From: Salinirubrum litoreum
Lineage (GTDB): Archaea; Halobacteriota; Halobacteria; Halobacteriales; Haloferacaceae
Length of the DNA: 64,000 nucleotides
NCBI RefSeq assembly: GCF_020567425.1
Contig: NZ_JAJCVJ010000001.1
Location: forward strand, 682,001-746,000
Direction: 5' to 3'
Below, in pieces: positions 43,759 to 56,862 of this stretch. The notes under the pieces are model-generated. The model searched no databases and had not been told where the DNA came from. It was given only the letters and a program-made list of their open reading frames with translations. Each line of letters opens with the position of its first letter. The first letter of the stretch is position 1. The position numbers were made by a program, and so were the translations under genes.

Positions 43759-43953
43759 TCCGGGGCGGGTTCGAGGGAATCTGCGCGAGAGTTCGGCGAG
43801 GATTTCGACCAGGATCACTGCTACGACGACCGACTGAAGAATCTGACTCACGTCACGCGACCAGTCAGGCGGGCTGGCGCGACCCCCGTGTCGCGCCGAC
43901 GGTCGCAGGTAGGCGCTCACGCTGAAAGCGACTGGTCCACCGGGTGTTGCATG

Positions 43954-44115
43954 AGTCCCCGCCCAATCTCAGGGTGGGACTGAAAGGGGCCGCGCTCTCG
44001 ATCCTGCCCCGACGCCGGTAGCACTGGACTGAACGAGAGCGCGAGCGAAGCGACGCGCTCTCGTGAGGGAAGCGCGCACCAAGTCGCGGCAGGTCGAGAG
44101 CGTGGGGGCTTTCAC
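43954..44115. other. Inverted-repeat element / candidate structured RNA
   Basis: A hairpin (43954-43981, about ten pairs with a bulge) is followed by the words gactgaaagg and a large stem. Bases 43993-44008 (cgctctcgatcctgcc) pair with 44088-44102, 15 pairs with one bulge. Inside, 44034-44043 pairs perfectly with 44054-44063. Because the same octamer (cgagagcg / cgctctcg) occurs alternately four times, other pairings are possible. The arms extend outward to tgaaag on each side (43981 and, inverted, 44114). It could be a small RNA or a short mobile inverted-repeat element. Confidence 0.5.
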
Positions 44116-44273
44116 CTCTCGTCGTCTGCGACCGATTCGACCGAGTTCTCGACAACCGATTCGACCAAGTTCACACCCTCGCTCCAGTCGACAGAATCTA
44201 CCGCTCGGACCGAATCGACAGAACCCACGTCTCGAACGTTTCCACCAGAACCCGCGTACTCGTATCCACCGCC

Positions 44274-56589: not shown

Positions 56590-56862
56590 TGTTCTGGTTG
56601 GAACGGCACAAGCCGCAGAGGTAGATGTACCGACTGCTGTCGATAACACGTCCGTAATCCCGAAGTCCGGGCGCGTGTGCCCCGGACGAGTCAGATTTAC
56701 GGCTGTGCTGTTCCCGTCGGTGAGTCGTCGGCTCTCGGTGAAAAGGGTTGTCACTCCGGACTGGGTGTGTGTCTCGGTCCCAGACGTGGCGCGGGTAGCC
56801 GTGTGACTTATTCTCACGAACGGCCACCAGAAACTTACCAGTTCCAGCCGTTTTCGTCTCTC

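Follow-up and report, generated by a model that had tools for sequence, protein, structure and literature searches.

An order-wide family of dispersed, folded intergenic elements with BOX-like organisation in haloarchaea

A structured sequence in a stretch of 64,000 nucleotides from Salinirubrum litoreum (hereafter the window) belongs to a family of dispersed elements that lie between genes across a haloarchaeal order, and for this family we found no earlier description in the literature searched. The original prediction, a possible RNA or mini-mobile element that had escaped recognition, is thereby borne out in part: the family is multicopy, its stems covary and it corresponds to no Rfam family. 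We lean, if only by a modest degree, towards reading it as a dispersed BOX-like element that is recognised through its folded plus strand, most likely in the form of RNA. Neither the conserved words nor the known haloarchaeal repeat families led to a description in the open-access literature searched (subscription papers being outside that search), and we do not assert priority.

Fold, covariation and the folded strand

The covariance model R2, which was trained on other genomes only, places the copy at 43973-44114 on the plus strand (109 bits, E 1.3e-21), the next-best match in the 64-kb window reaching only E 0.63. The segment 43972-44115 (+) has a predicted folding energy of -85.2 kcal/mol, where its dinucleotide shuffles average -61.4 +/- 3.95 (z -6.0) and none of the 200 is as stable, and a single fold dominates its ensemble, the minimum-free-energy (MFE) structure having a frequency of 0.44 and coinciding with the centroid. 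This structured core is a rod of helices, P0 to P4, separated by conserved internal loops. It is closed by an almost invariant clamp, P0, in which TGAAAG at 43981-43986 pairs with CTTTCA at 44109-44114, and which is followed by a GGG/GGG internal loop (43987-43989 opposite 44106-44108) that is invariant in alignment A1 and has the consensus GGGGC/GGGGC in alignment A2. P1 (43990-44001 with 44094-44105) comprises 12 pairs, P2 (44003-44013 with 44083-44093) contains a C.C mismatch (44009/44087) that is retained among the copies of the same genome, and P3, together with short flanking pairs, has its 5' side at 44017-44025 and its partners inside 44071-44080. An asymmetric internal loop, with GGACTGA at 44026-44032 and GAGGGA on the opposite side at 44065-44070, leads to the apical hairpin P4 (44033-44064), which is swapped wholesale among copies; the 3' half of the rod (44065-44114) consists of the loop strand, P3', P2', P1', the GGG loop and P0'. 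The hairpin arms of the original prediction are there as claimed (outer stem 43990-44013/44083-44105, inner hairpin 44033-44043/44054-44064), and so are the matching tgaaag/ctttca words, which form P0.

Covariation supports this fold very strongly. In alignments A1 and A2, which were fitted to the structure, two-sided changes occur at 18 of 41 pairs within the own genome, with 96.6% of the cells paired, and at 37 of the 41 pairs across 105 copies from other species (800 two-sided cells); the latter copies score 0.463 for covariation, against 0.120 when shuffled (0 of 500 shuffles as good) and 0.03-0.05 for slid controls. P1 was in addition read from sequence anchors alone, i.e. in a manner not fitted to the structure, for copies in which 7 or more of the first ten pairs are Watson-Crick; its positions 1-10 then hold 2066 Watson-Crick, 47 G-U, 12 A-C and 45 other combinations in 217 distinct copies. 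At most positions of P1 all four Watson-Crick pair types are observed, and the unpaired loops are conserved across the order while the stem sequences change.

The two mismatch types are unequally represented, at a ratio of about 5 to 1: all helices together contain 161 G-U against 25 A-C combinations (117 against 25 when the outermost pair is removed). Mutation alone would be expected to produce both in equal number, and the G-U excess therefore identifies the plus strand as the folded strand. RNA should show such an excess, and single-stranded DNA should as well, though to a lesser degree; G-T is more stable than A-C in DNA too, so that strand asymmetry alone cannot separate the two. Within P1, G-U pairs are scarce (about 2%), scarcer than one would expect of a typical RNA.

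The scarcity of G-U intermediates and the joint change of the two arms could also stem from mutation instead of selection, namely from hairpin template switching (quasipalindrome correction) and ectopic gene conversion in a neutral repeat. P1 alleles that are few and discrete per genome, and the existence of shortened perfect palindromes and internal deletions, agree with such a process. Nevertheless, we regard it as quite improbable, in view of the GGG/GGG loop, the C.C mismatch of P2 and the GACTGA/GAGGGA loop, all of which survive uncorrected in the copies of the own genome, of the order-wide conservation of the loop sequences, and of the excess of G-U over A-C, for which correction would require a strand preference.

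Hairpin modules, 5' domains and 3' tail

The unit of about 135 bases with inverted ends that had been proposed holds in so far as the arms of P0 and P1 are inverted, but the actual unit is larger, as a 5' domain of about 110-560 nt and a 3' tail recur alongside the core. In the window the element extends from near 43860 to about 44226. Most copies are preceded by a recurring sequence of about 140-560 nt that is of type V1 or V2. The window copy has a V1 domain (43860-43971, +), in which ACCAGTC..GACTGGT encloses hairpins and which is also found upstream of other copies. The V2 domain is itself a covarying fold of 45 pairs, 16 of which show double Watson-Crick changes. A TATA-like block starts 26 nt ahead of the first paired base of V2 in about 9 of 21 V2 copies, a position at which the TATA element of haloarchaeal promoters is reported to lie (PMC8707807). 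No obvious promoter of their own is present in the V1 copies or in about half of the V2 copies.

The core varies by modules as well. Long copies (152-356 nt) have additional hairpins at fixed points of a common frame, and a double hairpin, TGGTTCGA..TCGAACGACA, occurs at 11 places in the own genome and at 4 loci in other genomes. The GACTGA/GAGGGA loop is found in both directions, which distinguishes type a from type b copies, the two sides being exchanged in the latter. On the 3' side, the tail (44109-44226, +) is composed of a GGGGGCTTTCACC(N)CTCGTCGTC unit and degenerate 24-27-nt repeats, which in the window copy lie at 44131-44148, 44155-44172 and 44209-44226 (+); several copies contain a repeated 54-nt unit. 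Translation of the minus strand of the tail yields SVESV repeats that end at the TGA of GGTGAAAG. We judged this reading to be an artefact of the 24/27/54-nt periodicity, because a real gene of the window occupies the opposite strand there.

Some copies have further repeats in or near them. An element of about 400 bp in genome G094 (locus L299, 4881-5283) has TTATTTATAAG, possibly an outward promoter, in its tail units, and in its upstream part CGAGGCTGGGGAGG is located between hairpins. Upstream of many copies in the own genome (e.g. L062, L077 and L120), 300-700 nt before the core, there are tracts of degenerate 5-7-nt units (GCGACA, GCACC, GCAACC and similar ones), mixed with TACTCGATCCGG..CCGGA and CTCGTGCTAGCGCGAG hairpins. 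At L087 a tandem array of about seven GTGGCTGGAACTGAAAGC units precedes a minus-strand copy (contig C1 of the own genome, about 1137 kb).

Distribution, genomic sites and evolution

A BLAST search of the own genome with the window copy yielded 73 matching pieces, and R1, a covariance model made from 20 copies, yielded 91 matches at E <= 1; about 70 copies have both ends. At least 120 stretches from the genomes of named haloarchaea (Haloarcula, Natrinema, Natronococcus, Haladaptatus, Halorussus, Haloparvum, Halobaculum and other genera) contain the exact word GGTGGGACTGAAAGGGGC, followed by the same rod, and gtgggactgaaaggggc, given in the original prediction as a word that recurs between haloarchaeal genes, indeed does so. 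The covariance-model search that had been suggested along with it returned haloarchaeal homologues with compensatory stem changes, at copy numbers from 0 to more than 100 across the genomes searched. Run on 393 genomes sampled from the phylum, R2 matched 65, every one of them in Halobacteriales (65 of the about 81 sampled in that order, 16 being without a match), and 0 of the about 312 sampled genomes outside it. The number of copies per genome ranges from 0 to at least 68 among 35 relatives (R2), and congeners in genus g14 vary from 7 to at least 115 (R1).

The two largest contigs account for 58 of the 60 best matches in the own genome, and contigs C3-C5, taken as secondary replicons, for the other 2, against 12.9 expected. 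The viral contigs and phage records searched contain no copy, which argues against a virus or phage origin; a plasmid-borne mobile element was rejected likewise, given the depletion of C3-C5 and at best six plasmid records with the element in each search.

No RNA family of Rfam 15 reaches its gathering score on the element. The best sub-threshold match, CRISPR-DR45 (19 bits against the required 37, E 1.4), is the sole and weak Rfam indication of a relation to CRISPR; the likeness to CRISPR repeats that had been suspected is not significant, and the element, in contrast to CRISPR repeats and CreA RNAs, is not found in repeat-spacer arrays. In GTGGGACTGAAAG there is what we take to be a short likeness to the crRNA 5' handle. 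The Cas6 model PF10040 had no match in the element-rich genomes tested, nor in the control Haloferax volcanii, which presumably has a cas6. The only Rfam match in the window at gathering score is an S15-Halobacteria ribosomal protein leader (RF03143) at 56646-56717 on the minus strand (63.8 bits), away from the element.

According to a simple composition-based gene caller, the calls of which are approximate, all copies examined in the own genome are intergenic. The gene downstream of the window copy encodes an Agl23-type protein (TIGR03663). The strands of the neighbouring genes are random (-- 21, ++ 19, -+ 14, +- 13), on which ground a 5' leader or 3' UTR element was rejected, and no uniform cis role on adjacent genes is visible. 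These counts also bear on the suggestion that mutually exclusive stems make the element a cis-acting attenuator or riboswitch. The cgctctcg/cgagagcg octamer on which this idea was based does occur four times, in alternation, in the window copy; the alternation is, however, found in only 3 of 47 own-genome copies and is incidental. As one fold dominates the ensemble, and as the copies have no bias of orientation towards either neighbour, nor any consistent orientation or position relative to a regulated gene, such a mechanism is very improbable, and as a property of the family it is refuted.

Comparison of 400 kb of genome G094 with the syntenic stretches of three congeners revealed that at most comparable sites two or more of the species share the element. 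Two neighbouring G094 sites are without it in genome G013; there the borders are imprecise and target duplication is absent, the sites being larger deletions or diverged, so that the two G013 sites looked at provide no clean empty site. Of 22 orthologous copies with both anchors, all from one genus, 17 have a changed sequence in the 5' arm of P1, and 12 of these 17 retain full pairing; like the anchor-based P1 counts above, these numbers do not come from the structure-fitted alignments. Among own copies there is no linkage between the alleles of P1, P2, P3, the loop type and the 5' domain (permutation P 0.06-0.94), and the two arms of each helix match though they lie farther apart in sequence than unlinked segments. 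This is the pattern that would be left by selection for pairing or by exchange of whole apical segments.

Within 900 nt, no copy with a gene between its ends was seen, only deleted ones: the three 5' ends that have no 3' partner at the normal spacing, which were considered as autonomous gene-holding copies, turned out to be internal deletions. Most of the rod is deleted between the ends at L110, L113 and L116 (near 4003) and at L158, L175 and L204, and one rod-deleted copy is a perfect palindrome, as from hairpin-mediated deletion. Head-to-head pairs, with about 28-31 bp between two GGTGGGAC ends, are present at L163, L167, L176, L177 and L179 and in genomes G386, G434, G470 and G477. On contig C1 of G094 (near 406.5, 1016.3, 1078/1080, 1726.8 and 2248.7 kb) close pairs flank one gene with their tails inward; the matches listed for the genus of G094 include no back-to-back pair.

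Comparison with known repeats and possible role

The main rival explanation is that the folded plus strand acts as single-stranded DNA, i.e. that the element is a non-autonomous mobile element, the hairpin of which is recognised by a transposase or recombinase (compare REPINs, IS200/IS605 ends and attC). This would account for copies that are dispersed, intergenic and randomly oriented, for the strong copy-number differences between congeners in g14, for the folding of one strand, and for the nesting of hairpin modules within the core; REP/REPIN sequences, which are associated with a Y1 (RAYT) transposase (PMC3116915), share the hairpins, the single-strand asymmetry and the inverted pairs. Nevertheless, we consider it rather unlikely. 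The element is several times longer than REPINs, and a Y1 (HUH) transposase (PF01797) has 0 matches in five element-rich genomes (G056, G013, G016, G006 and G483), whereas several are present in the element-free G001, G008 and G484, on which grounds dependence on this transposase was rejected. In addition, copies are absent from the viral sets searched and few on plasmids, most compared sites are common to several species with the pairing kept, and neither of the two sites without the element has the clean borders or target duplication of an insertion.

The ERIC/IRU and Correia repeats, which are MITEs (PMC10969869), resemble the family in being intergenic imperfect inverted repeats, with 30-700 copies, that are folded if transcribed. 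The haloarchaeal element differs from them in that no terminal inverted repeats, target-site duplications or, within 900 nt, parent transposon were found (at the two sites looked at there is no such duplication at a precise empty site, and the recurring sequence runs 5' and 3' past the inverted P0/P1), in that the fold is kept at orthologous sites, and in that its abundance is uncorrelated with the one transposase family tested. A literature search on PATE, the palindrome-associated elements of haloarchaea with ends related to IS200/IS605, yielded no match.

A further likeness is to BOX of Streptococcus, which is organised as boxA-boxB(n)-boxC (PMC3049150). Both are dispersed in many intergenic copies per chromosome, are foldable if transcribed and have a slow turnover of insertions (PMC3049150), and both are modular, combining ends that are fixed with inner or repeated modules that vary. 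BOX belongs to another domain of life, and the two are likened by organisation, with no claim of kinship; the haloarchaeal element is set apart by its order-wide conservation, its very strong covariation, the free reassortment of its nested helices, its location almost entirely on the two largest contigs, its tail repeats and its 5' domain of two alternative types. By analogy, the element would work most like BOX and also like ERIC-type repeats, a resemblance that does not demonstrate membership in either.

In the BOX-like reading that we favour, the functional state would be the folded plus strand, a rod with fixed internal loops between its nested helices P0-P4; hairpin modules, which are optional, a V1 or V2 domain and the 3' repeat tail are added to this rod. 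Transcription might proceed from neighbouring genes or, in some V2 copies, from an own promoter, and a host protein may bind the rod via the conserved loops. The copies would have spread by past dispersal and would now stay at fixed chromosomal sites, where the pairing could be maintained by selection on the fold and by an exchange between copies that moves both helix arms together, presumably through gene conversion.

It is possible, though on the whole doubtful, that the family constitutes a new class of large structured archaeal non-coding RNA, with tens to more than 100 related genes per chromosome across Halobacteriales, the rods of which are combined from exchangeable nested helices and plug-in hairpins. 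Selection on the fold would hold these genes at fixed sites, and they would influence some genome-wide process, for instance chromosome organisation or the sequestration of an RNA protein. If this is right, a single covarying family, absent from Rfam and from the open papers searched, would make up much of the haloarchaeal intergenic DNA. With over 100 natural variants per genome it would provide a model for two questions: whether dispersed repeats should be regarded as selfish, as domesticated or as transcribed machines, and how pairing arms stay matched while adjacent nested segments shuffle.
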